Shown in pieces: positions 40,417 through 60,281 of a DNA stretch of 64,000 nucleotides. The position numbers were made by a program, and so were the translations under genes. The notes under the pieces are model-generated. The model was not told the origin of the DNA, did not search any database, and worked only from the letters and a program-made list of their open reading frames with translations. The stretch lies in assembly GCF_003651185.1 (NCBI RefSeq), contig NZ_RCDC01000004.1:1536659-1600658 (forward strand), in the 5' to 3' direction. The stretch comes from Stenotrophomonas rhizophila. GTDB lineage: Bacteria; Pseudomonadota; Gammaproteobacteria; Xanthomonadales; Xanthomonadaceae. Within the stretch, counting starts at the first letter, position 1; each line of letters starts with the position of its first letter.

Positions 40417-40578
40417 GCCCCCACCCTAACGGTCGCGACCGGGCAGCGCAAACCGCGCGCCTGATGCGACAGACCGGTTCACGCGCGCATCGCCGCCGCT
40501 GCAACCGGGGCTTCATTGCCCCTGTGTTATGGTCAATCACGTGACTTGTTCGCCTTCTTCCCCACGAAGGGCGCACGC

Positions 40579-41847
40579 ATGTTGCGGTTGACCGCCCTGC
40601 TCGCCGGTGTGGCGCTGCTGCTGACCGGCAGCGGCCTGCTCGGCACATTGCTGGCGGTGCGCGGGGGTGAAGCCGGCTTCGGTGCCGGCACGTTGGGGTT
40701 GGTGATGTCCGGCTATTTCGCCGGTTTTTTCATCGGCACCTTCTTCGCCCCCTCGCTGATCGGCCGCATCGGCCATATCCGTGCGTTTGCCTTCTTTGCC
40801 GCCCTCGCCGCCATCGCGGTGCTGTTGCACCCTCTGTGGATCAATCCGGTGGGTTGGGGCGTGCTGCGCATCCTCACCGGCATCGCGCTGGTAGGCCTTT
40901 ACACGGTGATCGAGAGCTGGCTCAACGCCGAGCCAGACCCGCGCCTGCGCAGCCGCGCTTTCTCGCTCTACATGGTGGTCAACCTCTCGGCACTGGCGCT
41001 CGGCCAGGTGCTGCTGATGCTTGGCGACGCCGGCGCGACCTCGATGTTCATGCTGACCGCGATCCTGGTCTGCGCGGCAGTATTGCCGGTCACCGCTACG
41101 CGCCTGCGCCCGCCGGAGATTCCCTCGGTGCCGCGCCTGAAACTGGCGCGGCTGTATGCGATGGCCCCGGTGGCGACGGTTGCCGCCGGCCTCTCCGGCC
41201 TGGCGATGGGTGCGTTCTGGGGCTTGCTGCCGGTCTACGCTGGTGAGGTCGGCCTGGACGGCAATGGCGTCGCCCTGTTCATGCTGACCGCCATCGCCGG
41301 TGGCGCGTTGCTGCAATGGCCATTGGGTCACATCAGCGACGGGCATGACCGCCGCACCGGACTGGTCGCACTGAGCCTGGCCGCGGCGGGTATCGCCGTG
41401 GTGGCCTCGCTGCCGATGATCCAGCTGCAGACCCATCTGCTGTTCGGCCTGTTTTTCTTCTATGGCGGGCTGGCCTTCGCGCTGTATCCCTTCGCGGTCG
41501 CGCACATGCTCGATTACCTGCCGCGCGAAGATCTGCTCTCGGGCTGCTCCAGCCTGCTGCTGGTCCATGGCGTGGGCGCCGCGCTCGGCCCCGCGTTGGC
41601 GGGCGCGGCCATGCAACAGTTCGGCGCGCCTGCACTGCCGTTGTACTTCGCGGTGGTCCTGATGCTGCTGGCCTTGTTCACCACCGCGCGCCTGCTCAGT
41701 TTCCAGCGGCTGCGCACGCATCCGGTCGGCTTCCGGCTGATGCTGCGCACCACCCCCTCGGCGCTGGAACTGATGCCCGAGACCGACACCGCGCCGCCGG
41801 ATCCCGATATCCCCCTCCCCTCTGACTCCGATAAGGAAGTGCATTGA
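40579..41847 (+). CDS. ycaD: MFS transporter, YcaD-like
   Basis: A 422-residue major-facilitator protein with 12 TM segments. Motifs include GYFAGFFIGTFFAPSLIGRIGH in the first half and GLYTVIESWLN, characteristic of the YcaD family. In Stenotrophomonas a ycaD-like gene directly precedes the glucosylglycerol-phosphate synthase/phosphatase gene and has been proposed to move glucosylglycerol or a related solute. The next gene starts within its stop (TTGA overlap), consistent with one transcript. The start at 40579 is preferred; upstream in-frame residues are non-hydrophobic. Confidence 0.85.
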   Translation: MLRLTALLAGVALLLTGSGLLGTLLAVRGGEAGFGAGTLGLVMSGYFAGFFIGTFFAPSLIGRIGHIRAFAFFAALAAIAVLLHPLWINPVGWGVLRILTGIALVGLYTVIESWLNAEPDPRLRSRAFSLYMVVNLSALALGQVLLMLGDAGATSMFMLTAILVCAAVLPVTATRLRPPEIPSVPRLKLARLYAMAPVATVAAGLSGLAMGAFWGLLPVYAGEVGLDGNGVALFMLTAIAGGALLQWPLGHISDGHDRRTGLVALSLAAAGIAVVASLPMIQLQTHLLFGLFFFYGGLAFALYPFAVAHMLDYLPREDLLSGCSSLLLVHGVGAALGPALAGAAMQQFGAPALPLYFAVVLMLLALFTTARLLSFQRLRTHPVGFRLMLRTTPSALELMPETDTAPPDPDIPLPSDSDKEVH

Positions 41848-44156
41848 CTGTTTCGACACCGACCTCCCTCACTCCAACCCGTACACCGCCGGCGCCGCCG
41901 GCCCCGCAATTGATTCTCGCCACCGATCTGGATGGCACCTTCCTCGCCGGCGATCCCGCCGCGCGTCATCGGCTCTACCGGCTGGTCGACCAGCACCCCG
42001 GCATCCGCCTGATCTTCATCACCGGCCGCGGCCTGGAAGCAGTGATGCCCCTGCTCTCCGATCCGGCCATTCCGCGCCCGGATTACGTGGTCTGCGATGT
42101 CGGTGCGACCGTCGTCGACGGCCACACCCTGCAGCCGCTGCAGCCCCTGCAATCGATGATCGACGCGCACTGGCCGGGCGAGCAGGTGGTCGCCGCCGCG
42201 ATGCGTCCGTTCACCGCACTCCAGCGCCAGGATGTGCCGCAGGAACGCCGCTGCTCGTATTTCTGCGATCCGGACACGCTGGCGCCGCTGCGCTCGCAGA
42301 TCCAGGCCGCCGCGCAGGCGCTGGGCTGCGATGTGCTGTACTCGGCCGACCGCTATCTGGACATCCTGCCGCCGGACACCGACAAGGGCCGCACCCTGGC
42401 CGCGCTTGCGCGCCTGCTGGAGCTCCCGCGCGACCGCATCCTGGTGGCCGGTGACACCCTCAATGACCTGTCGATGTACACCTCCGGTTTCCGCGGGGTG
42501 TGCGTGGGCGATTCCGAGCCGGCGCTGACTGCCGCGACGGCCGACCTGAAGCACACCTTCCATGCACAGGCGCCGGGTTGCGGCGGCATCCTCGAAGCGA
42601 TCGAACATTTCGGCCTGCTCGCCGATGACGATCCCTTCCTGCGCCCACCGCCGCAGGCGCGCGCCGACGGCGCCGACCTGGTGATGGTCTATCACCGCCT
42701 GCCCTTCGATGAAGTGATGGAAGACGGCGTGCTGGTGCAGCGCCCGCCGCGCTCGCCCAACGGCATCATCCCCTCGCTGCTGAGCTTCTTCGAAGGCGGC
42801 CAGAAGGGCTCCTGGGTCGCCTGGGGCATCGATGAACCCAAGCGCGGTCCGTTCCAGACCCACCTGGCGGTGGATGCCGAGCGCTACCCGACCCTGACCG
42901 CTGCGCGCGTGCCGCTGAGCAAACAGGAAGTGGACATTTTCTACAAGCGCTTCTCCAAGGAAGCGTTCTGGCCGATGCTGCACGTGTTCTGGGAACGCGC
43001 GAAGTTCCGCGAAGAAGACTGGCAGGTATTCCTGAAGGTCAACCGCAAGTTCGCCGAGGCCACCGCCGCCGAGGCCGCGCATGGCGCGACCGTGTGGATC
43101 CACGACTACAACCTGTGGATGGTGCCGGCCACGCTGCGTGAACTGCGCCCGGACCTGAAGATCGCCTTCTTCCACCACACCTACTTCCCGTCGGCGGATG
43201 TGTTCAATGTGGTGCCGTGGCGCCGCGAGATCATCGGCAGCCTGCTCAGCTGCGACTACATCGGCTTCCACATTCCGCGCCAGGTGGAAAACTTCGTGGA
43301 CGTCGTGCGCGGTGCGATGCCGGCCGAACGGCTGGCGTGGGAAAGCTGTGCCCCGCGCTTCCTCACCTATGGGTGCGCCGTGGGTCTGGACACGATGACC
43401 ACGCGCCTGCGCGTGGGCGACCGCGAAGTCGCCCTCGGTGCGCACCCGGTCGGCACCGATCTGCGCCGCATCCACAACGTGCTCGCCCGCAGCGACGTGC
43501 GCAATGACATCTTCAAGCTGCGCCGCGAGATCGGCGCGCGCAAGCTGGTGCTGTCAGTGGAGCGCCTGGATTACACCAAGGGCACGCTGGCCAAGCTGGA
43601 GGCGTTCGAGCGGTTGCTGGAGCAGCATCCGGATCGCCAGGGCAAAGTCACCCTGCTCATGATCTGCGTACCGGCCGCGCGCGAGATGACCATCTACCGC
43701 ACGCTGCAGAACCAGATCGAGCAGGCGGTGGGGCGGATCAACGGGCGCTTCTCGCGGCTCGACTGGACCCCCGTGCGCTTCTTCGCCCAGGCATTGCCGT
43801 TCGAAGAGGTGGTGGCGCACTACGCCGCCGCGCAGGTGATGTGGATCACCCCGTTGCGCGATGGCTTGAACCTGGTGTCCAAGGAGTTCGTGGCCACGCA
43901 GGGCATCGAGGGCAGCAACGGCGTGCTGGTGCTGAGCGAATTCGCCGGTGCGGCGGCCGAGCTGAAGGGCGCGGTGCTGACCAATCCGCATGACCCGGCC
44001 GACCTCACCGCGGGCTTGTTGCAGGCGTTGTCGATGCCCGACGAGGAAGCCACCGGGCGCATGCGCCAGCTGTTCGGCAGCGTGGAGTATTACGACGTGG
44101 ATCGCTGGGGCCGGGACTTCCTGGACGCGGTGCGCAACAGCCACGCCGAAGGCTGA
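41844..44156 (+). CDS. ggpPS: Bifunctional glucosylglycerol-phosphate phosphatase/synthase
   Basis: A 770-residue fusion of a HAD phosphatase (about 22-260) and a GT20 glycosyltransferase (about 280-765). The phosphatase has DLDGTF (nucleophile D28, acid D30) and AGDTLNDLSM. The transferase has FHHTYFPSADVFNVVPWRR, HPVGTDLRR, ERLDYTKG and RDGLNLVSKEF. The FHHTYFPSADVFN form is closer to GgpS than to OtsA, which has FLHIPFPS. It would make glucosylglycerol from ADP-glucose and glycerol-3-phosphate. An OtsBA-like trehalose enzyme is the alternative. The start is TTG at 41844, overlapping the ycaD stop, with AAGGAAG upstream. Confidence 0.85.
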   Translation: MTVSTPTSLTPTRTPPAPPAPQLILATDLDGTFLAGDPAARHRLYRLVDQHPGIRLIFITGRGLEAVMPLLSDPAIPRPDYVVCDVGATVVDGHTLQPLQPLQSMIDAHWPGEQVVAAAMRPFTALQRQDVPQERRCSYFCDPDTLAPLRSQIQAAAQALGCDVLYSADRYLDILPPDTDKGRTLAALARLLELPRDRILVAGDTLNDLSMYTSGFRGVCVGDSEPALTAATADLKHTFHAQAPGCGGILEAIEHFGLLADDDPFLRPPPQARADGADLVMVYHRLPFDEVMEDGVLVQRPPRSPNGIIPSLLSFFEGGQKGSWVAWGIDEPKRGPFQTHLAVDAERYPTLTAARVPLSKQEVDIFYKRFSKEAFWPMLHVFWERAKFREEDWQVFLKVNRKFAEATAAEAAHGATVWIHDYNLWMVPATLRELRPDLKIAFFHHTYFPSADVFNVVPWRREIIGSLLSCDYIGFHIPRQVENFVDVVRGAMPAERLAWESCAPRFLTYGCAVGLDTMTTRLRVGDREVALGAHPVGTDLRRIHNVLARSDVRNDIFKLRREIGARKLVLSVERLDYTKGTLAKLEAFERLLEQHPDRQGKVTLLMICVPAAREMTIYRTLQNQIEQAVGRINGRFSRLDWTPVRFFAQALPFEEVVAHYAAAQVMWITPLRDGLNLVSKEFVATQGIEGSNGVLVLSEFAGAAAELKGAVLTNPHDPADLTAGLLQALSMPDEEATGRMRQLFGSVEYYDVDRWGRDFLDAVRNSHAEG

Positions 44157-44298: not shown

Positions 44299-45207
44299 TT
44301 ACCCGGCGTGCTGCATGATGCTTTCGGCAAGCACTGCCACCTGGCGCAGCACGTCGTTGCGGCCGGCATCGTCCACCGTCGCGCCCTGCAGGTAGCTGGT
44401 CAGCACCCACGGTGCACCGCCGGCGAGCGGCCACAGAATGGCGATGTCATTGGTGGTGTCCTCGCCATTGCTGCCGGTCTTGTCACCCACCCGCCACGCC
44501 TTGGACAATCCGGCGCGCAGCCGTGTATCGCCGGTTTCGTTGTCGATCAGCCAGTCGGCCAGCTGCTGTTTCGAGGCGGGCTTGAGGACGTCACCGAGCA
44601 CGAAGCGCTGCAGGCTGGCGGCCATCGCGGCCGGGCTGGTGGTATCGCGCGGGTCGCCCGGGGCGAAGCGGTTCATCTCCGGCTCGAGACGGTCATTGCG
44701 GGTCACCGCATCGCCGTTGGCACGCAGGAACGCGGTCACGCCGGCCGGCCCACCCACCATGCCCAGCAGCAGGTTCGCGGCGGGGTTGTCGCTGGTGATC
44801 ATGGTCGCCCGGCACAGGTCGCGCACGGTGACGTCCTTGCCGATGTGCCGCGTGGTCACCGGCGCATGCGAGAGCATGTCCTGCTGGCGCACGGCCACGC
44901 GCCGGTCCAGCGAGAGCCTGCCCTGGTCGGCCAGGTGCAGCACCGCGGCGGACAATACGAACTTGAACGTGCTGCACATCGGGAAGCGTTCGTCCTGCCG
45001 GTTGCCGGTGCGCCAGCCGGTACCGGTGTTGAGCAGGGTCACGCCGAGGCGCCCGCCGCTTGCTACTTCCAACGCGGCGAAGTCTTTCGCCGCGACGGCA
45101 GGTTTCGGCGCGGGCAGCGGCGTCTTGGCGAAGGCGGTGGTGGTGGCGGCCAGCGCAGACGCGGCGGCCGCGCCGGTCCATTGCAGGAACTGTCGTCGAG
45201 CGATCAT
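44299..45207 (-). CDS. blaL2: Class A beta-lactamase, L2-like
   Basis: A 302-residue serine beta-lactamase with a Tat-type signal (ARRQFLQW). Active-site motifs are complete: STFK (S79-K82), SDN (139-141), EPEMN with the general base E175, and KTG (243-245). MCSTFK carries a Cys before the nucleophile. Blocks such as RQDERFPMCSTFK, LSHAPVT and NETGDTRLRAG are characteristic of the inducible L2 enzyme of Stenotrophomonas. A LysR-type gene is divergent, as in L2-ampR. CAAGGAG lies before the ATG. Confidence 0.9.
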   Translation of the reverse strand: MIARRQFLQWTGAAAASALAATTTAFAKTPLPAPKPAVAAKDFAALEVASGGRLGVTLLNTGTGWRTGNRQDERFPMCSTFKFVLSAAVLHLADQGRLSLDRRVAVRQQDMLSHAPVTTRHIGKDVTVRDLCRATMITSDNPAANLLLGMVGGPAGVTAFLRANGDAVTRNDRLEPEMNRFAPGDPRDTTSPAAMAASLQRFVLGDVLKPASKQQLADWLIDNETGDTRLRAGLSKAWRVGDKTGSNGEDTTNDIAILWPLAGGAPWVLTSYLQGATVDDAGRNDVLRQVAVLAESIMQHAG

Positions 45208-45413
45208 GGGGTTCTCCTTGGCGAAGGCCTGAGTATTGGCAGGTTGCCGCGCCTCCACCAGCGAGGATTTTCAGCGGAAGTCATTACTTGACCTCATACC
45301 TCTTGGCATCCCCCCCCGGGAATGAACGCGGAAAATGGCGTCATCTGCGGAAGTCGCTCGCCGCAGCTGCCCCTCGGTGCGAAGATGCATCACTCCTGCT
45401 CACGGCTCGCCCC
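45208..45413. promoter_or_regulatory. bla-ampR divergent control region
   Basis: This 206-bp region between two divergent starts should hold the AmpR operator. A palindrome AAGT-CATT-ACTT at 45278-45289 is the most visible dyad and could be one LysR-type half site. Exact promoters are not assigned. Confidence 0.45.
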
Positions 45414-46274
45414 ATGCTCCGCCCCCAGCTGCCGCTCAACGCCCTGCGCGCCTTCGAGGCTGCCGCCCGGCACCAGAATTTCACCCGTGCCGCCTTGGAA
45501 CTGTGCGTCAGCCAGGCCGCGCTGAGCCATCAGATCCGGGCGCTGGAGGACCGGCTGGGCGTGTCGCTCTTCACCCGGTTGCCGCGCGGGGTCGCCCTGA
45601 CCGATGAAGGCGCCCGCCTGTATCCGGTGCTCAACGAGGCCTTCGACCGCATCGCGGTGAGCCTGGACCGGTTCGTCGGCGGGCATTTCCGGGAGGTGTT
45701 GAGCGTGGGCGTGGTCGGCACCTTCGCCACCGGTTGGCTGCTGCCGCGCCTGGGGGATTTCAACGCGCGCCATCCGGATATCGAACTGCGCCTGCAGACC
45801 CACAACAACCGCATCGATCTGGCCGGTGAAGGGCTGGACCTGGCGATCCGGTTCGGTGATGGCGATTGGCAGGGGCAGGTCAGCGATGCCGTACTGGATG
45901 CCCCGTTTGCGCCGCTGTGTGCACCTGCGTTGGCACGTACGCTGCGGCAGCCGCGCGACCTGGCCAACGTGGCGTTGTTGCGCTCCTACCGCAGCGACGA
46001 GTGGCCACGCTGGCTGCAGGCCGCTGGCGCGCCGGAGCTGGACGCGCGTGGGCCCGTGTTTGATTCGTCCCTGACGCTGGCCAGTGCCGCCGCCGCAGGT
46101 GCGGGCGTGGCGCTGTTGCCGTTGAAGATGTTCGAGCAGGATCTTGCCCAAGGGCGCTTGATCCAACCCTTCGCGCAGACCCTGGACCTGGGCAGGTATT
46201 GGCTGACGCGGCTGCGCTCGCGCAGCGAGAGCGATGCGGCGCGGCGGTTCCGGGAATGGCTGGAAACCCGGTAG
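45414..46274 (+). CDS. ampR: LysR-family regulator, AmpR type
   Basis: A 286-residue LysR-type regulator. The N-terminal winged helix starts PLNALRAFEAAARHQNFTRA and ALSHQIRALEDRLGVSLF, the signature of AmpR proteins. The effector domain contains VGVVGTFATGWLLPRL and GEGLDLAIRFGDGDW. AmpR activates the divergent beta-lactamase in response to muropeptides from cell-wall damage. The gene is divergent from bla, and no ampG or ampD is in the window. Confidence 0.9.
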   Translation: MLRPQLPLNALRAFEAAARHQNFTRAALELCVSQAALSHQIRALEDRLGVSLFTRLPRGVALTDEGARLYPVLNEAFDRIAVSLDRFVGGHFREVLSVGVVGTFATGWLLPRLGDFNARHPDIELRLQTHNNRIDLAGEGLDLAIRFGDGDWQGQVSDAVLDAPFAPLCAPALARTLRQPRDLANVALLRSYRSDEWPRWLQAAGAPELDARGPVFDSSLTLASAAAAGAGVALLPLKMFEQDLAQGRLIQPFAQTLDLGRYWLTRLRSRSESDAARRFREWLETR

Positions 46275-54022: not shown

Positions 54023-55324
54023 CTACGCCTTGGCCAACGCCTGCTCCAGGTCCGCCAGCAGGTCGTCGATGTGCTCGATGCCGACCGACAAGCGCACCGT
54101 GTCTTCGCTGACGCCCGCCTTCTCCAGCTCGGCCGCATCCAACTGCCGGTGCGTGGTAGAGGCGGGATGCGTGGCCAAGGATTTCGCATCACCCAGGTTC
54201 ACCAGACGGGTGAACAGCTGCAGTGCATCCAGGAAGCGCGCGCCGGCGGCGCGGCCCCCGGGCAGGCCGAAGGTCAGCACGCCGGAGCCGTGGCCGCGCA
54301 GGTACTTCTGCACCAGCGCGTGTTCGGGGTGGTCGGGCAACGCGCCGTAGTTGACCCAGGCCACCTTGGCATGGCCCTGCAGATGCTTGGCCACGGCCAG
54401 GGTGTTCGCGTTGATCCGGTCCAGCCGCAGTGCCAGCGTCTCGATGCCCTGCAGGATCAGGAAGGAATTGAACGGTGAAATCGCCGCGCCGGTATTGCGC
54501 AGCGGTACCACCCGCGCGCGGCCGATGTAGGCGGCCGGCCCGAGGGCTTCGGTGTAGACCACGCCGTGGTAGCTCACGTCCGGCTCGTTCAAGCGGCGGA
54601 AACGCTGCTTGTGCTCCGCCCAGGGGAAGCGTCCGGAATCCACGATCGCCCCGCCCAGGCTGGTGCCATGTCCCCCGAGGTACTTGGTCAGCGAATGCAC
54701 CACGATGTCCGCGCCGAAATCGAACGAGCGCTGCAGGTACGGTGTCGCCACCGTGTTGTCCACGATCAGCGGTACGCCATGCGCATGCGCGATCTTCGCG
54801 ACCGCTTCGATGTCGGTGATGTTACCGCGCGGGTTGCCGATGGACTCGACGAACACCGCCTTGGTGCGGTCATCGATCAGCGCGTCGAACGCCTGCGGGT
54901 CGCGGTAGTCGGCAAAGCGCGTTTCGATCCCGAACTGCGGCAGCGTGTGCGCGAACAGGTTGTAGGTGCCGCCATACAGCGCACTGGCCGAGACGATGTT
55001 GTCGCCGGCCTCGGCGATGGTCTGGATCGCGTAGGTGATCGCGGCCTGGCCCGAGGCCAGGGCGAGCGCGCCGATGCCGCCCTCAAGCGCGGCGATGCGC
55101 TGCTCGAGCACATCGGTGGTCGGGTTCATGATGCGGGTGTAGATGTTGCCCGGCACCTTCAGGTCGAACAGGTCCGCGCCATGCTGGGTGTCATCGAAGG
55201 CGTAGGCCACGGTCTGGTAGATCGGCACCGCCACCGCGCGGGTGGTGGGATCGGGCCGGTAACCGCCATGCACCGCGATGGTCTCCGCGCGCCACTGTGA
55301 TTCGGGACTGCCGTGTTCGGACAT
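54023..55324 (-). CDS. metY: O-acetylhomoserine aminocarboxypropyltransferase (MetY)
   Basis: A 433-residue PLP enzyme of the Cys/Met metabolism family. It makes homocysteine from O-acetylhomoserine and sulfide. The N-terminus is ETIAVHGGYRPDP. The PLP-binding Lys is in VVHSLTKYLGGHG. VDNTVATPYLQRSFDFGADI precedes it, and SLATHPASTTH is the C-terminal signature. The length is typical for MetY rather than MetB/MetZ (about 390). The terminator of clpB lies 39 bp upstream, so it is its own unit. Confidence 0.93.
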   Translation of the reverse strand: MSEHGSPESQWRAETIAVHGGYRPDPTTRAVAVPIYQTVAYAFDDTQHGADLFDLKVPGNIYTRIMNPTTDVLEQRIAALEGGIGALALASGQAAITYAIQTIAEAGDNIVSASALYGGTYNLFAHTLPQFGIETRFADYRDPQAFDALIDDRTKAVFVESIGNPRGNITDIEAVAKIAHAHGVPLIVDNTVATPYLQRSFDFGADIVVHSLTKYLGGHGTSLGGAIVDSGRFPWAEHKQRFRRLNEPDVSYHGVVYTEALGPAAYIGRARVVPLRNTGAAISPFNSFLILQGIETLALRLDRINANTLAVAKHLQGHAKVAWVNYGALPDHPEHALVQKYLRGHGSGVLTFGLPGGRAAGARFLDALQLFTRLVNLGDAKSLATHPASTTHRQLDAAELEKAGVSEDTVRLSVGIEHIDDLLADLEQALAKA

Positions 55325-55362
55325 ATCGCATCGTCTCCAGGTGAATGCCGACGATACCGAAC

Positions 55363-55388
55363 AAAAAACCCCCGCCGAAGCGGGGGTT
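55363..55388 (-). terminator. Intrinsic terminator of clpB
   Basis: On the minus strand AACCCCCGC-TTCG-GCGGGGGTT is followed by TTTT, 60 bases after the clpB stop. It has the full stem, UUCG loop and U-run. Confidence 0.9.
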
Positions 55389-55448
55389 CATGCCAAACAT
55401 GCATGGTGTGAGGCCCAACGGTTATCAAGCCGCCGGCGCGCGCGGGGC

Positions 55449-58034
<2,586 letters not shown>

Positions 58035-58083
58035 GTTCTTGTCCTCGATGTAAACGGGGCTGGCCGTGCCAGCACTGTCCCTG

Positions 58084-58111
58084 AAATGCGGTTACGGGGG
58101 CGTGTTTCAAG
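58084..58111 (-). promoter_or_regulatory. Sigma-32-type heat-shock promoter of clpB
   Basis: On the minus strand CTTGAAA (58105-58111), a 13-bp spacer and CCGCATTT (58084-58091) match the RpoH consensus CTTGAAA / CCCCATnT with one mismatch in the -10. The site lies 50-77 bases before the clpB ATG. Confidence 0.8.
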
Positions 58112-58139
58112 GGTGGATGAGATGCCGATTCAGGGTTCG

Positions 58140-59456
58140 TCAGGCCGTCGGCGGCCGGGCCAGCAGCGGCGGTTCGGGCGGCTGCGGGACCAGGCAGCCG
58201 AGACCGGCGGGCAGGTCCAGTGCCACGGTGTAGCCCCCGGTGACGCCGTAGCCGATCCGCCACGACGAAGGGAACAGATCCGGCGGCTGGAACGCGATAT
58301 CCACCGCAATGTCGCTCAAACTATCGGTGACCTGCAGTGGCGTGCTGGCGGGCGCGTACTCTATGTCCTCCGCACCGCGCGTGGTGATCACGTTCCTGCG
58401 CTGGATCGCGGCGGCCGGCACCGACGAGCGCGGCGCGCCGCGCATCTGGAAGGCCCCATGGAAGCCCGTGTCGACCAGCATCAGGTTGTTCTCGCGGCCC
58501 CGGATCGGAAAGCGGACCTGCTGGAAGGGACCCCACAACGAGGAGGTGAAGACGGTCCGGCGCGTGCACGCGGCCGGGGTCTGTGCTCCCAGCAGCGTCA
58601 GCGTTTCACGCGAGAGCGTGATCCGCCCCAGCGCGCGCAGCACGTCCAGGCCGATCAGGTTGAGCTCGCGCGCCGCTTCGCTGTTGAACGACACATCACG
58701 CACCCGCTGCCCACCCACCTCGATATCGATCGGTGCCACCAGGCCCGCCTGCTGGATATCGCCCTCGACGATGCGCGACACCACGAAGCCCTCGGTAACG
58801 GCCAGGCCGAGCGAGTCGGCCAGCGCGCGGGTGATGTGCGAGCGCGGGGCCCCGGTATCAACGATGAAGGCGGCCTCTTGGGTGACCGGCGCGCCATCGC
58901 GCGTGCCGTGCAGCGTGAGGGTCACCGAGGGCAACTCATTGCTGAACTGGATCGGCACCGCCACGTCCTGCGCCCGCTCGGCTGCGGGCAGCGCGCTGCG
59001 CGGCCATGTGGTGAAGGACGCGAACGCCGGCCGGGTGACATCGGGCACTTCATCGCCGGCCCTGAGCATCGGCACGATGGTGCGCTGGTAGTCCTCGCGC
59101 ACGCGCAGCATCAGGCTCGCCCATCCGGCGATATCGCCCTCGATCAGCGCATTGCCCGCGAGGGTGGATTCGCACAGGAACGCCAGACCCTGCAGCGCCG
59201 GCGGTGCATCCCGGGTTTCATCCAGGCACTGGCGTGCTGCACGGTTGGAGGCGGCCAGCTCGCCACGGACACGATGGTAGCCCGCTGCACCGAGGTGACG
59301 GCGCGGACCGGATGCACCGCTCATCTCACGCAACGAGGTCAGTTCCGCACGCAGCACCGCATCGCTGTAGCCGAACCCATCGTGCAGTGCCACCGGATCG
59401 GCCGCCACCGTGGCCGGCAACACCGCCACGCACATGCCCAGGACCCACTTCCGCAT
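58140..59456 (-). CDS. Exported aspartic-protease-like protein with two DTG motifs
   Basis: A 438-residue exported protein (signal to about 19, TVAAD). A helical N-terminal region (about 25-160) has paired Cys (QCLDE, FLCES). Two retropepsin-like lobes follow: AFIVDTGAPRS (D200-G202) with NLIGLDVLRALG, and LMLVDTGFHGAF (D329-G331). This gives a single chain with both catalytic aspartates, unlike homodimeric bacterial retropepsins. The substrate is unknown. It lies just upstream of clpB on the same strand. Confidence 0.75.
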   Translation of the reverse strand: MRKWVLGMCVAVLPATVAADPVALHDGFGYSDAVLRAELTSLREMSGASGPRRHLGAAGYHRVRGELAASNRAARQCLDETRDAPPALQGLAFLCESTLAGNALIEGDIAGWASLMLRVREDYQRTIVPMLRAGDEVPDVTRPAFASFTTWPRSALPAAERAQDVAVPIQFSNELPSVTLTLHGTRDGAPVTQEAAFIVDTGAPRSHITRALADSLGLAVTEGFVVSRIVEGDIQQAGLVAPIDIEVGGQRVRDVSFNSEAARELNLIGLDVLRALGRITLSRETLTLLGAQTPAACTRRTVFTSSLWGPFQQVRFPIRGRENNLMLVDTGFHGAFQMRGAPRSSVPAAAIQRRNVITTRGAEDIEYAPASTPLQVTDSLSDIAVDIAFQPPDLFPSSWRIGYGVTGGYTVALDLPAGLGCLVPQPPEPPLLARPPTA

Positions 59457-59570
59457 CGCGTACTCCCATCAACATGCCCGCTCGACCCTAGCACGGGAAC
59501 CACGCTGCGCTCACGCCTGCTTTCGGCAGCACCGGCGATGCTGGAGGTCGGTTCCATACGGAGTGGCGGC

Positions 59571-60281
59571 ATGCATTACGAACTGTATTACTGGACCGGC
59601 ATCCAGGGCCGCGGCGAGTTCGTGCGGCTGGCGCTGGAAGATGCCGGCGCGGGCTACACGGACATGGCGCGCATCCATGGCGATGTGGTCATGCAGCCGT
59701 ACCTGCAGGGCAAGGTTGAAGGCCTGCAGCCATTCGCGCCTCCGTTTCTGCATACCGGCCGGCAGGTGATCGCCCAGGTCGGCGCGATCCTGGACCACCT
59801 GGGCCCGGAACTCGGCCTCGTCCCGGATGCCAGTTCACGGCGGCAGCAGGCACTCCAGCTGCAATTGACCATCGCCGATCTGGTCGCTGAGGTGCACGAC
59901 ACCCATCACCCGATCGCAGCGTCGATGTACTACGAGGATCAGAAGCACGAAGCCAAGGCGCGCGCCGCCTCCATGCGCGGCGAGCGCATGCCCAAGTTCC
60001 TGGGCTATTTCGAGAACGTGCTCAAGCACAACGGCGGGCGGCATCCGCTGCGGGAGCATTCCTACGTGGATCTCTCCCTGTTCCAGCTGCTGAGCGGGCT
60101 GGAGTACATGTTCCCGCGCCGCATGCAGGCGCTGTGGCCGACGCTGCCGCAACTGCGTGCATTGAAGGACCGGGTGGAAACCCGGCCCAACATCGCCGCC
60201 TATCTCGCCTCCGAACGCCGTCTGCCGTTCAACACCAACGGCATCTTCCGGCATTACCCGGCGCTGGATGGCGAGGCATGA
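59571..60281 (+). CDS. Glutathione S-transferase family protein
   Basis: A 236-residue GST. The N-terminal thioredoxin-like domain begins YELYYWTGIQGRGEFVRLALEDAG, with Tyr near the expected catalytic place. The mainly helical C-terminal domain (about 85-225) has SYVDLSLFQLLSGLEYMFP and ALKDRVETRPNIAAYL. The sequence resembles sigma/alpha-like GSTs that use glutathione for detoxification. ACGGAG precedes the ATG at 59571. It is convergent with the permease gene. Confidence 0.87.
   Translation: MHYELYYWTGIQGRGEFVRLALEDAGAGYTDMARIHGDVVMQPYLQGKVEGLQPFAPPFLHTGRQVIAQVGAILDHLGPELGLVPDASSRRQQALQLQLTIADLVAEVHDTHHPIAASMYYEDQKHEAKARAASMRGERMPKFLGYFENVLKHNGGRHPLREHSYVDLSLFQLLSGLEYMFPRRMQALWPTLPQLRALKDRVETRPNIAAYLASERRLPFNTNGIFRHYPALDGEA

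Follow-up and report, generated by a model that had tools for sequence, protein, structure and literature searches.

The ycaD-ggpPS gene pair for glucosylglycerol in a Stenotrophomonas genome: a conserved gene overlap, a lost OtsA arginine and no GlgC above the cut-off in the genus

We analysed a stretch of 64,000 nucleotides from Stenotrophomonas rhizophila (RefSeq assembly GCF_003651185.1, contig NZ_RCDC01000004.1, positions 1,536,659 to 1,600,658), hereafter called the window, which carries two overlapping genes, namely a transporter gene of the MFS type and ggpPS, predicted to encode a fused glucosylglycerol-phosphate phosphatase/synthase. An earlier note on this DNA, made from its letters alone, had proposed both genes; both frames are open at the positions it gave, and the transferase motifs that it quoted are present. 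For comparison, we used the best 80 of 477 confirmed GgpPS matches (L-numbered loci) and 91 Stenotrophomonas genomes. Near-identical strains were counted separately throughout, and the counts are not independent events. The features of the locus are as follows.

40526-40533, forward strand: conserved block GTTATGGT, pattern G-N-T-A-N-G-G-T, 46-53 nucleotides 5' of the transporter start (alignment)
40579-41847, forward strand: MFS transporter (published S. rhizophila name ycaD), 422 amino acids, ATG start, TGA stop at 41845-41847, frame open
41833-41839, forward strand: Shine-Dalgarno-like AAGGAAG within the 3' end of the transporter gene
41844-41847, forward strand: TTGA overlap of 4 nucleotides, formed by the ggpPS TTG start and the transporter TGA stop (alignment of loci)
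41844-44156, forward strand: ggpPS, predicted fused glucosylglycerol-phosphate phosphatase/synthase, 770 amino acids, TTG start at 41844-41846, frame open
41904-42617, forward strand: N-terminal HAD phosphatase domain of the sucrose-phosphatase type, residues 21-258 (Pfam S6PP, PF05116; 226.7 bits, cut-off 20.3)
42678-44132, forward strand: C-terminal GT20 domain, GgpS type, residues 279-763 (Glyco_transf_20, PF00982; 426.4 bits, cut-off 32.5)
43677-43679, forward strand: codon of Ala612, at the place of OtsA Arg300 (residue alignment)

TTG 41844 is the predicted start of ggpPS that we trust, and it is more than chance, since AAGGAAG lies just 5' of it and both AAGGA and TTGA are conserved at all 16 aligned junctions (loci L026-L041). 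The earlier note had placed this TTG inside the stop codon of the transporter; the TTG start was borne out, but start and stop overlap by two bases in TTGA rather than one lying within the other. The 4-nucleotide overlap recurs at 20 of the 23 loci compared, and it is a fair inference that it may couple the translation of the two genes. A sequencing artefact at the junction was rejected because the overlap is identical in all of L026-L041. The sole alternative early start inspected, a TTG at codon 23, was likewise rejected for the window, since a usual start codon stands at that place in just 3 of 24 relatives (TTG in L035, GTG in L042 and ATG in L088; CTG or CTC in the others). A start at codon 23 is possible in L042 and L088, and in many distant relatives the protein begins near this place, without the 20-odd leading residues.

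At the place of the transporter ATG (40579), ATG or GTG was found in 15 of 16 aligned loci and CTG in L047; an alternative upstream start, TTG 40516, is possible and would give a protein of 443 amino acids. In the block at 40526-40533, the first G, the T, the A and the last T are invariant in the window and 16 loci, and the two inner G are present in most rows. The region upstream of the transporter contained no match to a sigma-70 promoter. The block is a candidate promoter element, possibly part of a salt-responsive promoter.

The domain architecture agrees with the earlier claim of a HAD phosphatase joined to a GT20 transferase in the order phosphatase-synthase, as defined by PF05116 and PF00982 (see the features above). 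The claim that the transferase is GgpS-like rather than OtsA-like also held. The fusion passes the NCBI equivalog model for GgpS, TIGR02398, with 726.9 bits (cut-off 569), whereas it fails the OtsA model TIGR02400 (427.9 bits, cut-off 564.85) and the model for fused trehalose enzymes, PRK14501 (461.9 bits, cut-off 634). The separate OtsA encoded outside the window by the same genome is the mirror image, with 602 bits on TIGR02400, above the cut-off, and 270.9 bits on TIGR02398. The phosphatase part belongs to the wider family PF05116 and fails the equivalog model SPP_plant-cyano, TIGR01485 (95.5 bits, cut-off 183.65). Residues D28, D30, T60, K181, D204 and D208, which we take to be the catalytic residues of the HAD domain, do not vary among 38 aligned GgpPS, namely those of the window and of 37 of the 80 loci. 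Because the GgpS model is passed, the OtsA model is failed and the domain order matches, the assignment of the fusion as GgpPS is supported at the level of sequence.

The AlphaFold2 model of the fusion, built from the same 38 aligned sequences, has a pLDDT of 85.4 and a pTM of 0.82. The top structural match to model residues 272-767 was the trehalose-6-phosphate synthase (TPS) of Mycobacterium thermoresistibile (5jio; Z 43.7, rmsd 2.3, 463 aligned residues), and the modelled GT20 domain also superimposes on OtsA (1gz5; Z 41.7, rmsd 2.5, 454 aligned). Residues 20-260 match sucrose-phosphatase (1s2o; Z 27.1, rmsd 3.3, 237 aligned). Among the structure matches listed, none was named glucosylglycerol-phosphate synthase, an absent name that excludes nothing. 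The mycobacterial TPS, the best-ranked solved relative of the window GT20 domain at 36% identity (5jio, 5k41), differs from the fusion in that it is a trehalose enzyme whose solved chain has no phosphatase domain.

The acceptor and donor sites were compared with those of Escherichia coli OtsA, for which Arg9, Trp40, Tyr76, Trp85 and Arg300 are given as glucose-6-phosphate residues and Gly22, Asp130, His154, Arg262, Asp361 and Glu369 as UDP-glucose residues (PMC1769515). We counted 78 GgpPS rows, consisting of the window and 77 of the 80 loci (all but L044, L055 and L062), and seven of the nine Stenotrophomonas OtsA loci (all but L018 and L019). Arg9, Trp40, Tyr76 and Trp85 are conserved in 78 of 78 GgpPS rows. 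At the place of Arg300, by contrast, there is Ala in 78 of 78 GgpPS rows and Arg in seven of seven OtsA rows. The window fusion thus keeps four of the five residues and lacks a complete OtsA glucose-6-phosphate site. The earlier note had taken conserved OtsA-type glucose-6-phosphate residues as a sign against a glucosylglycerol enzyme; four are indeed conserved and do not separate the enzymes, whereas the fifth is lost. Since the four residues are shared by all 78 GgpPS, conserved OtsA-type residues alone mislead, and the loss of Arg300 is a useful mark. We infer that the replacement of Arg300 may decide the choice of acceptor. The same place is occupied by Asn in the GgpS of Dinoroseobacter shibae and by Glu in a fusion from Kitasatospora, which scores below the cut-offs of both the GgpS and the OtsA model. 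All six OtsA donor residues are identical in the 78 GgpPS rows; these residues do not discriminate between nucleotide bases.

The locus corresponds to a system that has been described before. In S. rhizophila DSM14405T, the genes DX03_04600 (ggpS) and DX03_04605 (ycaD) are presented as genes for synthesis and transport, and they are reported to be missing from S. maltophilia R551-3 and K279a (PMC4101175). In the same strain, ggpS was salt-induced 8.3-fold and ycaD 7.7-fold, and excretion of glucosylglycerol at higher salt was reported (PMC3653106). Fused ggpPS, with the phosphatase part N-terminal in S. rhizophila, has been noted in carriers that include S. rhizophila, P. mendocina and A. vinelandii (PMC10873239). 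The earlier statement that fused GgpPS enzymes are known from S. rhizophila relatives is in line with the published salt-induced pair and the published fusion. The DSM14405T pair, known here by its published description, is from the same genus as the window, has neighbouring locus tags and the same phosphatase-synthase order, and showed no substantial difference from it; the likeness is drawn from these publications and from the records titled S. rhizophila, whose proteins are 99% (L027) and 95% (L033 and L039) identical to the window protein. We conclude that the locus is the already known ycaD-ggpPS system in another Stenotrophomonas genome. The full reading, that of an operon for glucosylglycerol that is salt-induced, encodes the fused enzyme and includes a transporter that probably exports the product, is given a probability of about 0.88.

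In accordance, the transporter and the enzyme occur together across the genus. Of the 91 Stenotrophomonas genomes, 30 have a GgpS above the cut-off and a further one, G101, has it in pieces. Exactly these 31 genomes also have the transporter (matches with E up to 1e-60), whose gene immediately precedes ggpPS in the same orientation in all 31. Of the 80 loci, 43 have an MFS gene within 400 nucleotides upstream, 6 have one downstream and 2 have one on the opposite strand, while L049 has a partial match whose frame ends early; the remaining 28 had no MFS match, and some of these are cut by contig ends. Two observations on records from other sources stand beside these counts. The locus L038 comes from a record titled Bacillus subtilis SK7B5; its ycaD-ggpPS encodes an enzyme 94% identical to that of the window, and the record most likely represents a contaminated or mislabelled assembly. 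Four phage records contain partial matches, of which two are annotated otsA and two are unannotated.

Several observations weigh against the reading of this locus as a glucosylglycerol operon with its own exporter. The co-occurrence of transporter and GgpPS may reflect the shared history of one clade and not 31 separate events, and outside the genus the link is looser, with an MFS gene in any arrangement near ggpPS in 52 of the 80 loci. The best match to the window protein came from a record titled S. maltophilia 13146; among the matches listed, those at least 99% identical also include S. rhizophila BIGb0145, Stenotrophomonas sp. SAM-B and S. bentonitica VV6. The trait itself extends beyond S. 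rhizophila and is reported to be strain-dependent, with five of nine rhizosphere isolates of S. maltophilia accumulating glucosylglycerol (PMC8245107). The designation of the transporter is also affected. It had been called a YcaD-like MFS transporter, of which the family holds, with 76.5 bits on PF07690 (MFS_1; cut-off 33.4), whereas the likeness to YcaD is just loose, with 126.2 bits on PRK03633, short of the cut-off of 361. We presume that PRK03633 is the YcaD model; ycaD is used here as a published gene label that would not imply orthology to YcaD proper. The last point concerns the sugar donor. No GlgC above the cut-off was found in any of the 91 Stenotrophomonas genomes, including that of the window, where the best match reached 32.8 bits against a cut-off of 424.9, and this leaves the textbook supply of ADP-glucose unexplained.

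The strongest alternative concerns the direction of transport. MFS proteins can work in either direction, no tested sequence feature sets the direction here, and the earlier note had allowed for both export and recovery of the solute. The enzyme may be GgpPS with a partner that imports glucosylglycerol itself or one of its precursors, for instance glycerol. Against uptake, S. rhizophila releases glucosylglycerol at higher salt and induces the transporter together with the synthase (PMC3653106), and a review names ycaD as the likely candidate for the then still unidentified glucosylglycerol exporter (PMC4390839); the passages of the two papers considered here contain no direct test of direction. 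We regard uptake as unlikely, and export of glucosylglycerol by the linked MFS protein as the most likely role.

Much less probable is that the product of the GT20 domain is a related heteroside, formed from another sugar donor or from glycerate, for which the TPS-like galactosylglycerol enzymes of red algae provide a parallel, since glucosylglycerol production is reported for S. rhizophila and the proteins from records titled S. rhizophila share 95-99% identity with that of the window. A bifunctional trehalose-6-phosphate synthase/phosphatase, using UDP-glucose and glucose-6-phosphate and dephosphorylating the product, can be dismissed as very improbable, because the GT20 fold, four of five glucose-6-phosphate residues and six of six UDP-glucose residues that the fusion has in common with OtsA (PMC1769515) are set against Ala for Arg300 in every row, scores below the cut-offs of TIGR02400 and PRK14501 but above that of TIGR02398, a fused phosphatase of the sucrose-phosphatase type and a separate OtsA in the same genome.

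The reading as GgpPS with a linked transporter can further be compared with two arrangements in other bacteria. The first is the ggpPS-ggp pair of Marinobacter, which has a fused GgpPS 62-63% identical to that of the window and, unlike the window, mostly a glucosylglycerol phosphorylase gene in place of the MFS gene. The phosphorylase was found in 19 of the 80 loci, mainly those of Marinobacter; three loci had both genes and 12 had neither. The tblastn search had returned 20 loci, of which L066, a weak match (29%), was not counted. The same enzyme gave no match in the 91 Stenotrophomonas genomes, in a search that had no positive control of its own. The second arrangement is found on plasmid pDSHI02 of D. 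shibae, where GgpS scores above the cut-off (657.8 bits) and the HAD gene upstream of it is 40% identical to the HAD part of the window protein. Unlike in the window, these are two separate genes, and no MFS gene is annotated within 16 kb. HAD gene and ggpS are neighbours in the same order as in the fusion and lie behind a glycerol-3-phosphate dehydrogenase gene, a gene order that points to glycerol-3-phosphate as the acceptor. By analogy, the D. shibae arrangement suggests how the fusion may have arisen.

Other architectures were also observed. Three members of the class (genomes G121, G133 and G139) have a GgpS above the cut-off in frames of 516-560 amino acids, too short for a fused phosphatase, and two of the three had no GlgC at E 1e-90. 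Actinomycete plasmids (L141, 3887-6121, and further matches) encode HAD-GT20 fusions 35-39% identical to the window protein, which are annotated as HAD-IIB hydrolases or unannotated. The one that was tested failed both models (GgpS, 323.7 bits against 569; OtsA, 293.7 bits against 564.85) and has Glu at the place of Arg300.

Since the Synechocystis GgpS reportedly requires ADP-glucose and does not accept UDP-glucose (PMC6004087), the distribution of GlgC, which usually supplies ADP-glucose, deserves a closer account. The same search that was negative throughout Stenotrophomonas was positive in 206 of 369 genomes taken from across the class. The best GlgC match in the window genome is GalU, which reaches 359 bits on its own model (cut-off 326.8). 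In the same genome, no glycogen synthase GlgA was found above the cut-off, nor was sucrose synthase, an alternative source of ADP-glucose, although the latter search had no positive control, none of 14 control genomes having passed. Published observations are similar in that S. maltophilia R551-3 is listed without any glg genes, and Xanthomonas, Pseudomonas and A. vinelandii DJ without glgC (PMC4301808). A literature search, which was largely at the level of abstracts and did not include two key ggpPS papers, returned no publication that we recognised as tying missing glgC to glucosylglycerol synthesis.

We then considered the 45 genomes behind the GgpPS loci, namely the isolates among the 80 loci, with metagenome-assembled genomes and the mislabelled L038 set aside. 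GlgC was above the cut-off in 11 of them, and 34 were without it. By locus type, GlgC was present in 1 of the 30 genomes that have just the transporter, in 9 of the 12 that have just the phosphorylase, in the single genome with both and in neither of the two with none. This split largely tracks ancestry (Xanthomonadaceae versus Marinobacter), and the counts ignore kinship. The enzymes do not follow it. No alignment column separates the GgpPS of GlgC-positive from those of GlgC-negative genomes (11 versus 33 rows). The Marinobacter rows taken alone are separated by a single column, that of residue 565, which lies outside the listed substrate residues. The GgpPS of three Marinobacter genomes without GlgC are 90.6-92.2% identical to the nearest relative with GlgC, which indicates that the enzyme does not differ clearly between genomes with and without GlgC.

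These data lead to a tentative proposal, to which we assign somewhat less than even odds, that the transporter-linked GgpPS branch is independent of the classical ADP-glucose route and draws either on UDP-glucose from GalU or on ADP-glucose from an unrecognised pyrophosphorylase. A UDP-glucose donor is counted against by the mycobacterial TPS described above, the nearest solved GT20 enzyme, which was solved with ADP and ADP-glucose bound.

Two further observations concern the surroundings of the gene pair. Directly downstream of ggpPS lie an L2-family class A beta-lactamase gene (window 44299-45258, reverse strand; 549 bits, cut-off 540) and a divergent LysR regulator gene (about 45420-46274, forward strand), whose best model is PenR, at a score below its cut-off. 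Among the 16 loci L026-L041, 15 have an L2 match downstream of ggpPS, and the sixteenth (L036) is cut by a contig end. Elsewhere in the window, an open frame of 1667 amino acids (55278-60281, forward strand), which could be one gene or a long chance frame spanning smaller genes, has GST_C_3 as its sole Pfam match, near the C-terminus (residues 1540-1646).

Taken together, the locus would function as follows. Upon salt stress, ycaD and ggpPS, whose joint induction is published, would be transcribed together, presumably as a single transcript. Ribosomes that end translation of the transporter may restart at the overlapping TTG. The GT20 domain would use a nucleotide sugar to glucosylate glycerol-3-phosphate, and the HAD domain at the N-terminus would dephosphorylate glucosylglycerol-phosphate, yielding the compatible solute glucosylglycerol, which the linked MFS protein would most likely release from the cell.

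As a locus, the gene pair confirms known biology, namely a conserved, overlapping pair of transporter and enzyme genes for a salt-protective solute. The analysis adds to the known system the co-occurrence of both genes in the genus, the loss of Arg300, the lack of a GlgC above the cut-off and the split between GlgC and locus type. The identity of the donor is the part that would matter, as it bears on the textbook ADP-glucose pathway in these heterotrophs. If the proposal on the donor is true, there would be two versions of the module, one linked to an exporter and without GlgC, the other linked to a phosphorylase and with GlgC, in which glucosylglycerol would be recycled. The answer would also bear on the engineering of glucosylglycerol production, in which the linked transporter may serve as the exporter.

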